Of a stretch of 64,000 bases of DNA, positions 18,683-63,921 are shown piece by piece. The DNA is from Bartonella grahamii ATCC 700132 (GTDB lineage: Bacteria > Pseudomonadota > Alphaproteobacteria > Rhizobiales > Rhizobiaceae): the NCBI RefSeq assembly GCF_000518085.1, contig NZ_JACX01000001.1:186001-250000 (forward strand), written 5' to 3'. Position 1 is the stretch's first letter; the number at the start of each line of letters is the position of its first letter. Made by a program: the position numbers and the translations under genes. The notes beneath the pieces are model-generated. The model had not been told where the DNA came from. It did not search any database and saw nothing but the letters and a program-made list of their open reading frames with translations.

Positions 18683-21592
18683 TTAATGTGCCTCATCCCA
18701 ATTTTGAGCCGTCATGACTTTTACTTCAAGCGGTACAGATAAAGATAAAATCGGCATTGTAGCATTTTCCATAACATTTTTAACAACAGCCATGGTTTTT
18801 TTACTCTCTTCTTCTGGTACTTCAAAAATCAGTTCATCATGCACTTGCAGCAACATTTTTGCTGATAGTTTTTCTTCTTTTAAAGCATTTTCCATCTGTA
18901 TCATAGCGCGGCGAATAATATCAGCCGCGGAACCTTGAATTGGAGCATTGATAGCTGCTCGCTCATTAAGAGAACGAATTTTTACATTCTTTGCTTTTAT
19001 TTCTGGATAATGGATACGACGTCCAAAAATTGTTTCTACGTAACCATTTTCACGTGCAAAGATTTTGGTCTTCTCCATATAATCTTTAATTCCTGGAAAT
19101 CTTTCAAAATACAGTTGAATATAACGACCCGCTTCTTGGCGTGAAATTCCCAATTGATTGGCTAATCCAAAAGCTGAAATACCATAAATAATACCAAAAT
19201 TAATCGCTTTTGCACGCCGTCGTATATCTGAATGCATTCCTTCTATCGCAACACCAAACATTTGTGATGCCGTTATAGCGTGAATATCATGCCCTTTAGC
19301 AAAAGCTTCTTTTAATGCTTTTATATCCGCAATATGTGCAAGAATACGCAATTCAATCTGACTATAATCAGCAGAAAGTAACACATGTCCTTTGGGAGCA
19401 ATAAAAGCTGTTCGAATTTTACGTCCTTCAGCAGTCCGCACTGGAATATTTTGCAAATTTGGCTCTGATGATGATAACCGCCCTGTTGATGTTATTGCCA
19501 AAGAATAATTCGTGTGAACTCGCCCTGTTTTTGAAAAAATATAAGAAGGCAAAGCATCTGTATAGGTAGATTTTAGCTTTGCAAGTTGACGCCACTCAAT
19601 AATTTTACGCGGTAAAACATGACCTTCAGCAGCCAACTCTTCTAAGGTCTGAGCAGAAGTTGACCATTGTCCACCCTTAGTTTTAGCGCCTCCAGATAAT
19701 CCCATTTTTCCAAAAAGGATATCCCCTAATTGCTTTGGCGAAGCAAGATTAAACTTTTCATCAGCTTGTTTGTAAATTTCCTCTTCTAGAATCAAAGCAG
19801 CTTGTGCCAATTCTCCTGAAAGACGCAATAAAATCTGCCGGTCAATAAGAATCCCACGTTCTTCCATTCTTGCAAGAACTTCTACAAGGGGTCGATCAAG
19901 ACGTTCATAAATTTTTGTCATTCCACGAGCAACAAGTTGCGGTTTTAATACTTGCCAAAGGCGTAGCGTTATATCAGCACGTTCCGCCGCATAAAGGGTT
20001 GCTTGTTTTAAATCTACTTGTGCAAAAGAAGTAATTTTTTTTCCGTTATGCGTTAAATCTTTATAGGAAATTGGTTTATGCTTAAGCCAACGTTCAGACA
20101 AATCATCCATATTATGGGTTAATATTCCAGCATCAAAAGCATATGATAAAAGCATGGTATCATCAAAAGAGCTTATAATAATGTCGTATTGCTTCATCAC
20201 CAACCAATCATATTTTATATTCTGACCAATTTTTAACACCGATGAATCTTCTAATATTGGTTTTAAAAGTGCTAAAGCTTTTCGGGTCTCAATCTGCGAG
20301 GCAATGTGCCCGCCCCTCAAAAGATCCTCTTCTCCTTCATCAAAATGTTCAAGAGGTATATAAGCTGCTTTTTCTGGCTGTAATGCGAGTGAAAAACCAA
20401 CAAGCTTTGCTTGCATCGGATCAAGAGATGTTGTTTCAGTATTAAAAGCGAAAAAACCCTGCTCTTGTGCTTGTGATAACCAATCTTTTAAAATTTCCTC
20501 ATCAAGAATTGTTGTATAAGCATCTCTTGTAATTTTTTGAGTCAGCGCTTGATCTTTACGTTTTTGTGCAAAAACTTGTGGAGAATTTTCAGAAAAATTA
20601 TGAAGAGATGCGCGCTCAGTATTTTTGATATCAGAATCATGCCCGTGGCTCAGTTTTTCCCATTCAACATCTATATCAAGTGCATCAATAACAGTTGCAT
20701 CGCATGTCGTTGCCTCTGCCACGCGACGCGTTAATGTTGAAAATTCCATCGCTTTCAAAAAAGCAATTAAACGTGGACCATCTTGTGGCTCCAAAATAAA
20801 ATCATCTAAATCATTATCTATAGGAACATCTGTTTTAAGCCTAACAAGTTCACGAGAAATTTTAACTTGTTCTCTATAAGCTTGAATGTTTTCACGTCGT
20901 TTTGTTTGTTTAATTTCTGTTACATTTTGCAACAAAAGATCTAGAGAATCAAACTGATCTAACAACTGAGCTGCAGTTTTGGGACCAATGCCTGGAATAC
21001 CTGGTACATTATCCGTTGAATCTCCAATTAATGCTTGTAAATCAATCATTTTTTCAGGTGCAACACCCCATTTTTCTACAACTTCTGAGATACCTATATG
21101 CTTGTCTTTCATTCCATCATACAAAGATACATGCGTATTTACGAGTTGCATAAGATCCTTATCAGAAGAGATAATGGTTGTTTTTGCCCCAACCTTTGTT
21201 GCCAATTTTGCATAGGTAGCAATCAAATCATCCGCTTCAAAGCCTTCCTTTTCAATACAAGGCAAATTAAAAGCCTTCGTTGCTTGGCGTATTAGCGCGA
21301 ATTGAGGAATTAGATCTTCAGGAGGTTCAGCGCGATTCGCTTTATATTCAGGATAAATTTGTTTCCGAAAAGTATCAGATGAATAATCAAAAATAACAGC
21401 AAAATGTGTTGGAACAATACCAGTAGCTGTATTACGAGCATCACAAAGTAATTTCCATAACATATTGCAAAAACCAGCTACTGCTCCTACAGGAAGTCCA
21501 TCCTTTTTACGTTTTAAAGGCGGCAAAGCATAATAAGCACGAAAAACATAGCCTGATCCGTCAACCAAAAAAAGATGATCTGTTGCTTTCAT
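18683..21592 (-). CDS. polA: DNA polymerase I, with a probably inactive 3'-5' exonuclease domain
   Basis: Pol I fills gaps and removes RNA primers. The 969-residue protein has all three domains: an N-terminal 5'-3' nuclease (LVDGSGYVFRAYYA, DSTDNVPGIPGIGPKTA), a central DnaQ-like exonuclease and a C-terminal polymerase with motif A DYSQIELRILAHI, motif B RRRAKAINFGIIYG and motif C QVHDELIFEV. In the exonuclease domain the first metal-binding Asp (E. coli D355) is Asn384 (FNTET, codon AAT), and the YxxxD residue (D501) is Arg538 (YAAER, codon CGT). Glu386 and Asp462 remain. The proofreading site is therefore probably dead while the polymerase looks intact. The start is the first ATG. Confidence 0.96.
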   Translation of the reverse strand: MKATDHLFLVDGSGYVFRAYYALPPLKRKKDGLPVGAVAGFCNMLWKLLCDARNTATGIVPTHFAVIFDYSSDTFRKQIYPEYKANRAEPPEDLIPQFALIRQATKAFNLPCIEKEGFEADDLIATYAKLATKVGAKTTIISSDKDLMQLVNTHVSLYDGMKDKHIGISEVVEKWGVAPEKMIDLQALIGDSTDNVPGIPGIGPKTAAQLLDQFDSLDLLLQNVTEIKQTKRRENIQAYREQVKISRELVRLKTDVPIDNDLDDFILEPQDGPRLIAFLKAMEFSTLTRRVAEATTCDATVIDALDIDVEWEKLSHGHDSDIKNTERASLHNFSENSPQVFAQKRKDQALTQKITRDAYTTILDEEILKDWLSQAQEQGFFAFNTETTSLDPMQAKLVGFSLALQPEKAAYIPLEHFDEGEEDLLRGGHIASQIETRKALALLKPILEDSSVLKIGQNIKYDWLVMKQYDIIISSFDDTMLLSYAFDAGILTHNMDDLSERWLKHKPISYKDLTHNGKKITSFAQVDLKQATLYAAERADITLRLWQVLKPQLVARGMTKIYERLDRPLVEVLARMEERGILIDRQILLRLSGELAQAALILEEEIYKQADEKFNLASPKQLGDILFGKMGLSGGAKTKGGQWSTSAQTLEELAAEGHVLPRKIIEWRQLAKLKSTYTDALPSYIFSKTGRVHTNYSLAITSTGRLSSSEPNLQNIPVRTAEGRKIRTAFIAPKGHVLLSADYSQIELRILAHIADIKALKEAFAKGHDIHAITASQMFGVAIEGMHSDIRRRAKAINFGIIYGISAFGLANQLGISRQEAGRYIQLYFERFPGIKDYMEKTKIFARENGYVETIFGRRIHYPEIKAKNVKIRSLNERAAINAPIQGSAADIIRRAMIQMENALKEEKLSAKMLLQVHDELIFEVPEEESKKTMAVVKNVMENATMPILSLSVPLEVKVMTAQNWDEAH

Positions 21593-21764
21593 GACAATTT
21601 TATTTCTCCATTTCAGCTAAAAACGCAAATTACCCTTATATATTTTTTTCACTTTTATTTTATTTTTTTCACTTTGCCTCTAAAAAGCCATTTTTTCTTT
21701 TCATAAGACATGAAGTCGTTGCACTTTATATTAAGTACCTAGAGCTTTTCTTTGCTGTTACAGG

Positions 21765-21866
21765 ATTAATAGCTTTCATTTTGCTCCTCCTATGATAGCT
21801 GAGGTACGATGTAGCGACAGGGTCGTTGTGGTGTTCCCCTCCCCACAACGACCGTTTTTTTTGACA
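21765..21866 (+). ncRNA. Candidate small RNA with two C-rich loop hairpins (possible EcpR1 relative)
   Basis: Between polA and dnaQ, on the strand opposite both, two hairpins lie in a row. The first has arms 21771-21779 and 21792-21800 (one mismatch) and a 12-base loop containing CTCCTCC. The second is an 11-bp perfect stem GGTCGTTGTGG/CCACAACGACC (21821-21831, 21843-21853) with a CCCCTC loop, followed by eight T residues, a strong intrinsic terminator. No gene on the plus strand needs this terminator, so a short transcript is the simplest reading. C-rich loops of this kind pair with Shine-Dalgarno sequences. As I recall, Sinorhizobium sRNA EcpR1 lies next to polA; homology here is an inference. 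The promoter and 5' end are not resolved. Confidence 0.6.
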
Positions 21867-21914: not shown

Positions 21915-22622
21915 TTATTCATGAATTTTGAAGTTATTCCACAGAGCTTTTTCACCCATCGTGTTGATAAAATCGGCATGCAACCTTTTTTCTTGCATAC
22001 TCAATCTTGAAGGTAAAGCCTGTGGGCGAATTTTAACTGCATAAGATGTATCTTTATCATTCTGGATATGTTCATCAACACCCCTTCTATTACCAAAGCC
22101 CAATACACCTTGTTTTCCACCGATCAGTTCAATATAAACATCGGCTAGAATTTCTGCATCAAGCAAAGCACCATGAAGAACACGATGGCTGTTATCAATT
22201 CCAAAACGTTTGCATAAAATATCAAGAGAATTAGGCCCCATAGGGAATTTACGCCGTGCCATAGCCAATGTATCAAGAATATTATCAACACTGATGAGCG
22301 GTTTGTTGACGCGTTTTAATTCTGCATTAATAAAACCAATATCAAAACTTGCATTATGCGCAATCATTGTCGCGCCTTTAATAAATTCCAAAAATTCATC
22401 AACAATATCACTAAAACTTTTCTCGTTTTTTAGGCGTTCATTGGTTAATCCGTGAATTGCTACAACTTCATCAGGAATAATAACGCCTTCAGGGTTTAAA
22501 TAAACATGAAATTGGCGCCCCGTAAGATAACGATCAACCATTTCTACACAACCAATTTCGATTATGCGATCTTTTTCTTTATCTAAACCTGTTGTTTCTG
22601 TATCAAAAATAATTTCCCGCAT
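21915..22622 (-). CDS. dnaQ: DNA polymerase III epsilon subunit (proofreading exonuclease)
   Basis: Epsilon is the 3'-5' exonuclease of the replicative polymerase. The 235-residue protein has all the catalytic positions: Exo I FDTETTGLD with Asp7 and Glu9, Exo II HNASFDIGF, and Exo III HGALLDAEILADVY with the HxxxxD pair. This contrasts with the damaged exonuclease site in the neighbouring polA product. A C-terminal tail after residue 180 probably holds the alpha-subunit binding part. It lies 4 bases after coaE in the run ppsR-maf-aroE-coaE-dnaQ, and is probably in the same transcript. Confidence 0.95.
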   Translation of the reverse strand: MREIIFDTETTGLDKEKDRIIEIGCVEMVDRYLTGRQFHVYLNPEGVIIPDEVVAIHGLTNERLKNEKSFSDIVDEFLEFIKGATMIAHNASFDIGFINAELKRVNKPLISVDNILDTLAMARRKFPMGPNSLDILCKRFGIDNSHRVLHGALLDAEILADVYIELIGGKQGVLGFGNRRGVDEHIQNDKDTSYAVKIRPQALPSRLSMQEKRLHADFINTMGEKALWNNFKIHE

Positions 22623-61145: not shown

Positions 61146-61552
61146 AAGATGACGTATCGCTTGTGGTGGCTATTGCTATCACGGTTTTCTTAATATTAGG
61201 GTCTGGATTGACACTGATCGCAACGATAGGTTTGGTGCGTTTTTCCAGTTTTTATGAGCGTTTGCATATGCTTTCAGTATGTACGAGTTGGGGCGTTGGT
61301 AGCATTCTTATTTCTTCATTTCTTTATTCAATATTTGTGGACCATTATTTTGTTTTTCATGAAGTGTTGCTGATGTTTTTTTTGTTTTTAACAGCACCGG
61401 TAGCTTCTATGTTGCTCTCACATACAGCAGCTTATCGACATCATTCAGAAGAACAGTCAGAAAAACCGCTGGCTCTTTTATTAAACCAGACGGAGGAAAA
61501 GTTACCCACGTCAGAAGGAACATCAAGCGATGAGAGCCAGCGCGGTTCTTGA
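61142..61552 (+). CDS. Mrp/Pha antiporter subunit G
   Basis: A 136-residue protein with three spans and the MrpG pattern IATIGLVRFSSFYERLHMLS, then LFLTAPVASMLLSHTAAYR. The last 30 residues form a hydrophilic tail not needed by the family. It ends the antiporter operon; a small hairpin overlaps its stop. Confidence 0.92.
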   Translation: MKDDVSLVVAIAITVFLILGSGLTLIATIGLVRFSSFYERLHMLSVCTSWGVGSILISSFLYSIFVDHYFVFHEVLLMFFLFLTAPVASMLLSHTAAYRHHSEEQSEKPLALLLNQTEEKLPTSEGTSSDESQRGS

Positions 61553-61564
61553 AATGTAAGAACC
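61544..61564 (+). terminator. Short hairpin at the end of the antiporter operon
   Basis: GGTTCTT (61544-61550) pairs with AAGAACC (61558-61564), spanning the stop of the G subunit gene. The T-run is weak and further on. The convergent mliC-type gene ends five bases later. Confidence 0.4.
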
Positions 61565-61568
61565 TTCC

Positions 61569-61958
61569 TTATTCTGTGCTTTTTTCTTCTACACACGTGA
61601 GGGACGTTGCGTGGTCTTCAGTAAGGGTATTGTAGAATGAGGCCTCGTTTCCTTTTGTCCACCAAACATATTCACCCCCTACATATTTTGCTCCAGAAGC
61701 AGAAACGACATTGGAAGCGATGATGCGCTTTCCATTCCATTTGAGATCAACTAATGCAATATCATTGGTAGTGTAGTAGGTTGCTTCAACACGTTCTTTT
61801 TTTGTTTCATTGCTGCATTGATAGACAGCGGTTTCTTTTTTTGGTTCTGAATCGTCTGGTACCTCAATGACTAAAGAGCCGGCAAAGGCACTCGTTGAGC
61901 TAAAAAGCGATAGACTTAAAACGGCTAAAAACCGTAAATTAAAAAGAGTTTTTTTCAT
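61569..61958 (-). CDS. MliC-family C-type lysozyme inhibitor, copy 1
   Basis: A 129-residue exported protein: signal peptide cleaved near AFAGS (residue 27), then the MliC/PliC domain. The pattern is YQCSNETKKERVEATYY, then ASGAKYVGGEYVWWTKGNEASFY, then a closing LTCVEE. The two cysteines probably form the family disulfide. MliC proteins plug the active site of animal C-type lysozyme with conserved Ser and Lys residues, here the S of SASGAKY and the K of WWTKG. It lacks a lipobox, so it is periplasmic. It is the second of two tandem copies. Confidence 0.82.
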   Translation of the reverse strand: MKKTLFNLRFLAVLSLSLFSSTSAFAGSLVIEVPDDSEPKKETAVYQCSNETKKERVEATYYTTNDIALVDLKWNGKRIIASNVVSASGAKYVGGEYVWWTKGNEASFYNTLTEDHATSLTCVEEKSTE

Positions 61959-61975
61959 AATGATTCCTTCGTTAT

Positions 61976-62371
61976 TTAGAACAACAATGTTGATTCATCT
62001 TTACAGTGGATGGGGGTTTTTCTTTCTGGATCACGAAGATGATCGTAAAGTGTGACTTCGTTGTTCTTTTTCCACCAAATATACCAAGTTCCTTCGTATT
62101 TTTCCCCTGTGTCTGCGACTACATTTGCAGCAATGACGCGATCGCCTTTCCATTTGAAATCAACCAACGAAATATTATCAGCATTGAGATAGACTGCTTC
62201 AACGCGCTCTTTACTTGTTCCAGTATCACACTGGTAGGTAATGGTCTCAGTTTTTGGCTCTGGATTGTCTGGTACCTCAATGATAAAAGAACCAGCTAAG
62301 CTATTGTTTGAGCTGAAGATTGATAAACTTAAAGCGGTGAAAAATCCTAAAATATGTAAAGTTTTTTTCAT
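61976..62371 (-). CDS. MliC-family C-type lysozyme inhibitor, copy 2
   Basis: A 131-residue paralogue 17 bases upstream of copy 1, with the same signal-peptide style (MKKTLHILGFFTALSLSIFS) and the MliC frame YQCDTGTSKERVEAVYL, then DTGEKYEGTWYIWWKKNNEVTLYD, then PIHCKD. Where copy 1 has SASGAKY and WWTKG, this copy has ADTGEKY and WWKKN. Residues thought to contact lysozyme therefore differ, and this copy may have weaker or other specificity. The pair is probably cotranscribed. Confidence 0.8.
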   Translation of the reverse strand: MKKTLHILGFFTALSLSIFSSNNSLAGSFIIEVPDNPEPKTETITYQCDTGTSKERVEAVYLNADNISLVDFKWKGDRVIAANVVADTGEKYEGTWYIWWKKNNEVTLYDHLRDPERKTPIHCKDESTLLF

Positions 62372-62424
62372 GATGCTTCCCTATATTCCTATATTGCGCA
62401 CAAAGAATAATTTGATTGATACGA

Positions 62425-62727
62425 TGGTGTCTACGGCAGGATTCGAACCTGCGACCCCAGGATTCATACCACTTCGATTTTCACCGCCAGCCTTATCGGC
62501 TGTTTGTGGTCTGGACTGTCTCTTCACCTTGAAGCTTTTGCTCTTTAGGTGCTGCCCGTTCAGTCTCTACACCTTTCTCTCATTTGAAGAGAGACTTGGC
62601 TCGGGATTGGCATATAGTCTCCCATGAAGCTTTCCCCGAATTTGAGCAGATTCACTTTGAGGATTTCTCCTCAAAATGCCCAATTTCTTTAGGAATCCTG
62701 TGCTCTATCCTACTGAGCTACGCAGAC
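62425..62727 (-). tRNA. tRNA-Arg(CCT) split by a group I intron
   Basis: On the minus strand the 5' exon (62691-62727) holds GTCTGCG, the D-arm and the anticodon-loop start ending in CCT. The 3' exon (62425-62464) holds AATCCTGG, the T-arm GGTTCGAATCC, the acceptor strand CGTAGAC, and an encoded CCA. Joined, they make a normal 77-base tRNA-Arg with anticodon CCT, a 7-bp acceptor (one G-T pair) and the loop TTCCTAA. Intron positions are 62465-62690. The same tRNA is interrupted at the anticodon in Agrobacterium tumefaciens, as established. Confidence 0.9.
62465..62690 (-). other. Group I intron (probably subgroup IC3)
   Basis: The intron has 226 bases between anticodon CCT and AATCC. The last intron base is G and the 5' exon ends in T, as group I splicing requires. 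Core strings on the minus strand resemble the trnL (cyanobacteria/plastid) introns: GCCAATCCCGAGCCAAG (62595-62611) and GGTGTAGAGACTGAACGG (62556-62573). An R/S-like GACAGTCCAGACCA follows. There is no ORF for a homing enzyme, so it is a small ribozyme-only intron, presumably self-splicing. Confidence 0.88.
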
Positions 62728-62787
62728 ATCATCATACTTATTCCTTTAATAGAAGTATAAAAACGAATCAATTATATTCAATATGAA

Positions 62788-63921
62788 TTAACGAATTTCT
62801 GCTAATTTTTGTTCCAGAAAAGTCAAAACTGCTTCCGGAGAGACATTTTTTGCAATAAATGATTGACCAAGTCCGCGTGTTAAGATGAAGGTCAAATTGT
62901 TTTTTGAGACTTTTTTATCTTGGGCAATGAGAGTCATTAAAGTTTCAGTATCTGGTAAGTTCCCTGGGATATCCTTTAATTGTGTAGGCAACCCTATAGA
63001 TTTAAAGTGTGCTCCAATGCGTTGTGTAAGTGTGGGGCTTATCAAATTTAGTTGAGCAGAAAATTGATGCGCTAGAATCATTCCAATTGCTACAGCTTCA
63101 CCGTGAATTAAACGCTTTGAGTTATAAGCCGTTGCTGTTTCAAGCATGTGTCCAAATGTATGGCCGAGATTTAAGAGCGCGCGCTCTCCTGTTTCTTGTT
63201 CGTCACGTGCTACAATGGCGGCTTTAAATTGGCATGAGCGGACAATGGCTTCTGTTCGCATAGGGCCATTAGAAAAGACTTCTTGTCCATTTTTTTCAAG
63301 CCACTCAAAAAAATCAGGCTGGTTAATGAGTCCATATTTAACCATTTCTGCGTAACCAGCACGAAATTCGCGCGGTGGTAGGGTATCAAGAAGACATGTG
63401 TCAGCAATAACGCATTGCGGTTGATAAAAAGTACCAATAAGATTTTTACCATATTGGCTATTGATTCCAGTTTTTCCACCAACGGAGGAATCAATTTGTG
63501 CAAGAAGCGTTGTGGGCATTTGAATGAAGTTCATACCACGGCGGATTATACTTGCCGCAAATCCTGCTAGATCGCCAATGACACCACCACCAAAAGCAAT
63601 AACACAATCGCCTCTTTCTAAACGCGCAGCAAGAATTTGATCGATGACAACTTGCAGGGTTGAAAATGATTTTGATTGTTCTCCCGCTTCTACAATAATA
63701 GGGACAGTATGAATTTTATTTTTTGTTAACTCTGCTTGTAATATCTCCAAATGAAGAGAAGCAACATTTGTATCTGTAACAAGTGCCAAGCGCGTTGGAT
63801 GAGGATCTTTTTTGTTAAGAGCATGTTTAATCTGTGAAGCAGCTTGGGCAATCAGACTCGGACCAATGATGATATCGTAACAGTGTTTGTCCAGTTTAAC
63901 AGTGACGGTCTTTGTTTGCAT
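62788..63921 (-). CDS. aroB: 3-Dehydroquinate synthase
   Basis: AroB converts DAHP to 3-dehydroquinate with NAD and a metal ion, early in the chorismate pathway. The protein has about 377 residues from the ATG at 63921 ([10 protein letters not shown]). It has the NAD region [29 protein letters not shown], the metal ligands in [11 protein letters not shown] and GHTFGHMLE, and HGEAVAIGM. The upstream frame adds 20 residues unlike the family. It overlaps a partial gene upstream by 26 bases, consistent with the aroK-aroB order. Confidence 0.95.

Follow-up and report, generated by a model that had tools for sequence, protein, structure and literature searches.

What occupies the gap between polA (18683-21592) and dnaQ (21915-22622) in Bartonella grahamii? 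Both genes lie on the minus strand of the window, by which we mean the whole 64,000-nt stretch of DNA analysed, and the gap between them carries hairpins and a terminator that read in the other direction. A preliminary description, made from the sequence, likened this element to EcpR1, a small RNA (sRNA) of Sinorhizobium. Judging from sequence comparisons, Bartonella probably does make a small regulatory RNA from this gap, and its origin appears to be a different one. We estimate at roughly three in four the probability that the element is the gene of a trans-acting sRNA of about 150 nt, descended from the rhizobial ar7 locus, remodelled, and acting on ribosome-binding sites.

Results

A hairpin element between polA and dnaQ

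Two plus-strand hairpins are present beside polA, as first described. When 21755-21863 is folded, its energy is -33.8 kcal/mol versus -22.7 ± 3.2 for shuffled sequences (z -3.49), and none of 200 shuffles was as good. The second hairpin is indeed a perfect 11-bp terminator followed by eight T; it does not appear in our automatic terminator scan, whose rule admits loops of 3–8 nt, the loop here having 11. The preliminary description had also remarked that this terminator is useless to the flanking genes, and rightly so: because polA and dnaQ are both on the minus strand, only a plus-strand transcript begun within the gap could use it. The C-rich loop motifs CTCCTCC and CCCCTC were located at 21784-21790 and 21836-21841, respectively. 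The extent proposed for the element, 21765-21866, includes the hairpins and misses the 5' third, since the conserved unit starts near 21711. The features of the locus, all on the plus strand, are as follows.

21676-21707, plus: promoter-like element GCCTCTAAAAAGCCAT (putative function)
21678-21683, plus: –35-like box CTCTAA, where ar7 has the box CTTGAA, with an 18-nt spacer to the –10-like box
21702-21707, plus: –10-like box CATAAG, 18 nt after the –35-like box
21711-21862, plus: predicted sRNA, about 150 nt, its 5' end estimated to within a few nt (match of the ar7-only model described below, 21714-21857)
21715-21723 with 21810-21818, plus: outer stem P1; 5 of 9 pairs changed on both sides, the highest count, and 98.0% of cells paired
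21735-21740 (GUACCU) with 21802-21807 (AGGUAC), plus: stem P2; 1 of 6 pairs changed on both sides, 97.7% of cells paired
21754-21799, plus: inner stem P3/P4, pairing GCUGUUA (21754-21760) with UGAUAGC (21793-21799) and AGGA (21762-21765) with UCCU (21788-21791)
21770-21801, plus: alternative inner hairpin, the first hairpin of the preliminary description, UAGCU-UCAU with AUGA-AGCUG around the 12-nt loop UUUGCUCCUCCU
21784-21790, plus: anti-Shine-Dalgarno motif CUCCUCC (UUCCUCC, CUCCUUC or UUCCUUC in some species)
21821-21862, plus: terminator hairpin, common to canonical ar7; stem 21821-21831 with 21843-21853, loop UGUUCCCCUCC, one G and eight T (21855-21862)

We searched the genus with 176 bases around the element as query, counting matches with E below 1e-20 as window-type. 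Window-type copies were found in 57 of 71 Bartonella genomes, and the same query gave chance-level matches (E 0.1 to 0.41) in nine of the remaining 14 and no match in five. Synteny is plain from the loci themselves, polA and/or dnaQ standing alongside the element in 57/57 window-type slices. Pattern extraction recovered 55 of these 57 loci (L047 and L061 were missed), and leaving out L003, L009, L010 and L015, which are identical or near-identical to retained rows, gave an alignment of 51 sequences. Throughout these 51 copies, GCC, AAAAG, most of the next CAT and the T run of the promoter-like element are invariant or nearly so. In five genomes assembled in one or two contigs (G006, G012, G022, G032 and G037) the element lies 3.1–3.8 kb from base 1 of its contig, a spacing that fits origin-based numbering; the contigs of most other genomes start elsewhere. 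In G007 and G008 the element occupies C1:4994-5143 and C1:263919-264063, respectively. The idea that the RNA persists in a very reduced genome does not hold, as this genome comprises 2.2 Mb in 66 contigs and the genus ranges from 1.4 to 2.9 Mb.

Covariation of the stems in other Bartonella, which the preliminary description had named as a check, was observed in this alignment. RNAalifold predicted 38 pairs from the 51 sequences, 10 of them with changes on both sides. In a separate count over 37 pairs, 99.1% of cells were paired and 10 pairs had double-sided changes, compared with 3.3 ± 1.2 after shuffling; none of 500 shuffles reached 10, a lenient control since the 51 sequences are related. 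When partner columns were slid, 32–61% of cells were paired, the 61% belonging to a slide of +3, which yet retained 8 double-change pairs (10 observed). Most of P1, the stem with the highest count, lies outside the span first assigned to the element. Taken from sequence, these results support a putative sRNA gene that is conserved, covarying and ended by a terminator.

The inner part of the RNA can fold in two mutually exclusive ways that have a common 3' strand. P3/P4 encloses a 22-nt loop (21766-21787), with pair probabilities of 0.92–0.96, 100% of cells paired and 2 of 11 pairs changed on both sides; the alternative inner hairpin has 98.9% of cells paired and 2 of 9 pairs changed on both sides. 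Because the two helices share a strand and vary little (two double-change pairs each), covariation counts do not decide between them. The divergent copy L066 has a base change in the shared strand that is compensated in each of the two alternative partners, and both folds survive. The predicted full-length RNA favors P3/P4 (-49.5 vs -46.2 kcal/mol), whereas 21755-21863 folded alone gives the hairpin first described. We do not accept the latter as the sole fold: it is 3.3 kcal/mol weaker than its rival, and both are kept in the alignment.

Relation to rhizobial ar7

The polA-side sRNA of rhizobia is known as SmelC023, sra03 or SmrC7 and corresponds to Rfam ar7 (RF02342) (PMC2245857, PMC3927594, PMC2573895, PMC2873474, PMC7143759). 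In S. meliloti the gene order is polA< smrC7> (PMC2573895), and smrC7 is also on the plus strand in PMC2873474; in contrast, sra03 is printed on the strand of polA in PMC2245857. The SmrC7 transcript measures 148–150 nt, with a 106-nt form produced by processing, and its level in nodules is raised about 13-fold (PMC2780559); no SmrC7 was detected with Hfq (PMC2848018). A survey of Rhizobiales sRNAs assigns ar7 relatives to Rhizobiaceae, Brucellaceae and Phyllobacteriaceae (PMC3927594).

Of the 199 genomes searched in the GTDB family, 166 had an ar7 match (E ≤ 0.1), 133 of them over the cut-off. The strict family search gave no ar7 match in this genome, in G015 and G028, or in 13 further genomes. 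Among 27 loci fetched by their ar7 match, polA adjoins ar7 in 24 (the exceptions being L095-L097). All 14 Bartonella genomes that are not window-type carry canonical ar7 at the site upstream of polA, with 69.4–84.2 bits against a cut-off of 60. On the window element the Rfam ar7 model scores 14.6 bits, under the gathering cut-off of 60. The element falls outside ar7 as Rfam defines that family, yet from the comparisons below it appears to descend from the ar7 locus in remodelled form. Given how the two forms are distributed among species, we infer that the remodelling happened once.

A covariance model was built from ar7 only, with 27 sequences (9 canonical Bartonella, 16 other genera and 2 from genomes of 1.0–1.1 Mb), none window-type and with L094 left out. 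In the window this model aligns from end to end, at 21714-21857 (41.2 bits, E 1.6e-9), and it matches 36/36 window-type sources (the window and 35 loci, including L047 and L061) with 27.2–44.6 bits. At E ≤ 10, the 125,880 bases searched held one other match, in L083, one of five further polA loci. The polA site was the sole match at E ≤ 1 in each of 16 whole window-type genomes searched, and the canonical-ar7 genome G003 gave one additional match (E 0.24). In L083 (516-621; G146, a 1.4-Mb genome), a shortened ar7-like element with a terminator hairpin stands beside polA, matching model positions 41-141 with 20.4 bits; the other polA loci, L081, L082, L084 and L085, had no match to the ar7-only model.

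The relation of the two ends of the element to ar7 was examined with position matrices. With a matrix built on the terminators of 14 Bartonella loci that carry canonical ar7 (6 distinct sequences), position 21824 came first among 127,954 positions on both strands, with 30.6 bits versus 10.2 for the runner-up. A 16-bp promoter matrix from 13 such loci (3 distinct sequences) ranks 21677 second among 127,970 positions on both strands, and a promoter matrix from other genera (19 loci) ranks the window site only ninth. The body of the RNA is another matter. An ar7-body model deprived of the terminator found no match in 19 window-type sources and L083 (E ≤ 10, default filters), which leaves a replaced body and an extremely diverged one indistinguishable. 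None of the 51 aligned window-type copies shows the two middle hairpins of ar7, whose strongly conserved loops are GUCCCCCGCC and UCCCCCUCUCC; in place of these hairpins the window type has one long stem with a CUCCUCC loop.

The case for descent from ar7 rests on the terminator, the promoter box, the place and the length. Like ar7, the element lies upstream of polA on the opposite strand and reads away from it, has the same terminator hairpin with a C-rich loop, and has the same length, with the difference that SmrC7's 148–150 nt is an expressed length and that of the window RNA is predicted by the model only. Its –35 box region resembles that of Bartonella with canonical ar7. The terminator, place, strand and length thus look inherited from ar7, the promoter box less clearly.

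Candidate targets

We ranked pairing with 317 start regions, taken from the window and 20 other stretches of this genome, with start codons chosen by script and the energy of opening the sRNA left uncounted. Three targets, dnaA, gcrA and ctrA, had been proposed in the preliminary description, and the prediction favored ctrA alone. The start region of ctrA, a gene identified by NF045991 (415.6 bits), forms the best duplex with the CUCCUCC loop (-24.0 kcal/mol, z -3.3 among the 317 regions, with an unbroken run of 16 pairs when G-U is counted), ranking first by duplex energy and fifth when target accessibility is included. The corresponding ranks are 15 and 88 for gcrA, and 60 and 86 for dnaA. 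In the ctrA leader (L291:5405-6133, minus strand), GCUCCUU is followed 10 nt later by AAGGAGC, and a hairpin between them would hide the gene's own Shine-Dalgarno site. The dnaA gene of G037 (C1:137346-138727, L190/L191) appears in two overlapping pieces in different frames, through either a frameshift or an assembly error.

Among the 317 regions, parA comes fourth by duplex energy and eighth once target accessibility is counted, its rank for the terminator loop being 42; within the 46 start regions of the window it is best for both loops. It comes first for the CUCCUCC loop in 26 of 34 Bartonella loci holding both, most of them close relatives, and in none of the six loci with a changed UCAUUUUGCUCC core (L221-L226), where complementarity is not kept. 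We regard ctrA and parA, on these predictions, as weak candidate targets and as leads only.

Alternative explanations

The preliminary description saw in the element a possible homologue of EcpR1 that would control dnaA and gcrA. The two resemble each other in having two main stem-loops with C-containing loops, and the gcrA start region is in the top 5% by duplex energy; however, gcrA and dnaA do not stand out once target accessibility is counted, and the locus and loop motifs are different. EcpR1 (SmelC291/sra33) sits between divK-pleD and rpmG, not beside polA, and its first loop, SL1, is UCCGCCGCAUCU (PMC4414408); Bartonellaceae are named among the families without EcpR1 (PMC3927594). The loop UCCGCCGCAUCU is not in the element, nor does it occur exactly in any of nine Bartonella genomes, a result that is weak alone, since a 12-mer is rare by chance and an altered loop would escape. 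The same 12-mer occurs somewhere in eight of nine other genomes, 2–11 times each, and, among two non-Bartonella rpmG loci, lies beside rpmG only in G223. The EcpR1-like stretch at rpmG of G223 is 72% identical over 90 nt to L176, the rpmG locus of another genus (E 1.1e-7); at Bartonella rpmG, its best scores were 21.1 bits in this genome, 22.9 in G006 and 27.4 in G014 (E 0.03). We consider EcpR1 homology highly improbable; the sRNA known beside polA in rhizobia is of another family, ar7. A member of the ar14 family (RF02344, NfeR1) beside polA is slightly less far-fetched and still very unlikely: no family has a lower E-value here than ar14 (E 0.058, 21.0 bits), which has anti-Shine-Dalgarno loops, but 21.0 bits is far under the cut-off of 58.8, and the same site in 14 relatives is held by canonical ar7. 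Moreover, 17 of 18 Bartonella genomes have an ar14 match away from the polA site (E ≤ 1, a threshold at which 3 of 14 control genomes also match, so that the weakest may be chance), two of them over the cut-off. NfeR1 has three hairpins, each with an anti-Shine-Dalgarno motif (PMC7143759), whereas here there is one internal hairpin and a terminator. A sub-threshold ar14 match of 31 bits lies in this genome at C1:92382-92499 (L274:2382-2499), about 115 kb from the polA site.

Two further readings were considered. One holds that the hairpins are a by-product of a short minus-strand peptide gene with the Shine-Dalgarno sequence AGGAGG, an ATG and 17 codons. By eye, such a frame is found at 21726-21791 on the minus strand, with a good Shine-Dalgarno sequence and start opposite the sRNA loop in a highly conserved stretch. 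Also by eye, 7 of 51 copies (L050-L054, L065 and L066) lack the start codon, and clades differ in frame because of a 1-nt difference in length. Neither start nor frame being conserved across species, we rejected the peptide, which has next to no chance of being the explanation. The other reading is that of a newborn Bartonella sRNA that took the promoter and terminator of ar7 as spare parts, with no functional continuity. The undetectable similarity of the body to ar7 in the body-only search speaks for it, as do inner hairpins that differ from those of ar7 in number and kind. The terminator loop, itself a candidate pairing site, is nevertheless common with ar7, and ar7's length and place are kept, and we think this reading unlikely, though deserving of more weight than the others.

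Discussion

Under the interpretation we prefer, that of a remodelled ar7, the predicted sRNA would read away from polA and end at its own terminator. The window-type lineage would have kept the terminator hairpin, position, strand and length of ar7, and less clearly its promoter box, while the inner hairpins would have been replaced by a single long hairpin whose loop carries CUCCUCC. By pairing with target mRNAs at their purine-rich Shine-Dalgarno region, this loop and the C-rich loop of the terminator would hinder translation. NfeR1, an sRNA with anti-Shine-Dalgarno loops, silences its targets (PMC7143759), and by analogy with sRNAs of this type, ribosome-binding sites would be the partners of the CUCCUCC and CCCCUCC loops. 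Half closed in the predicted fold of the full-length RNA, the CUCCUCC strand would become open if the RNA were shortened at its 5' end, as in the processed form of SmrC7. Transcription, such processing and mRNA pairing are predictions in Bartonella. A bolder proposal is that the lineage rewired an ancient sRNA, retaining its ends, exchanging its targeting body for a hairpin with two states, one concealing and one exposing an anti-Shine-Dalgarno loop, and so redirecting it to cell-cycle and segregation mRNAs, ctrA and parA among them. We offer it as speculation, with the odds well against it.

Bartonella sRNAs are already known from RNA-seq, among them the Brt RNAs of B. henselae and the sRNAs of B. 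bacilliformis. The Brt RNAs differ from the element described here in being 194–203 nt long with a helix-turn-helix gene downstream. For B. bacilliformis, 160 sRNAs are tabulated in a supplement (PMC7717549), and the main text of that paper mentions neither polA, dnaQ nor Rfam; the transcript may already have been published in that table under a different name. Among the literature matches listed, mostly open-access, none described ar7, or any sRNA beside polA, in Bartonella. According to the B. bacilliformis study, an unannotated tRNA-Arg(CCU) gene of that species contains a group I intron (PMC7717549). We observed a group I intron in the window as well (62500-62703, minus strand; Rfam RF00028, 66.3 bits), and ARAGORN found no tRNA at 61500-63500, a result consistent with a tRNA gene interrupted by the intron.

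By our analysis, reading this locus as EcpR1 is a plausible error, and a Bartonella element that has had no name finds its place in the history of the ar7 sRNA. ar7 is an sRNA of most genomes searched in the family, and the cited papers, in their available parts, do not state its function. Since the old form, in bee Bartonella and B. tamiae, and the new form occupy the same site, it becomes testable which part of the RNA carries that function.
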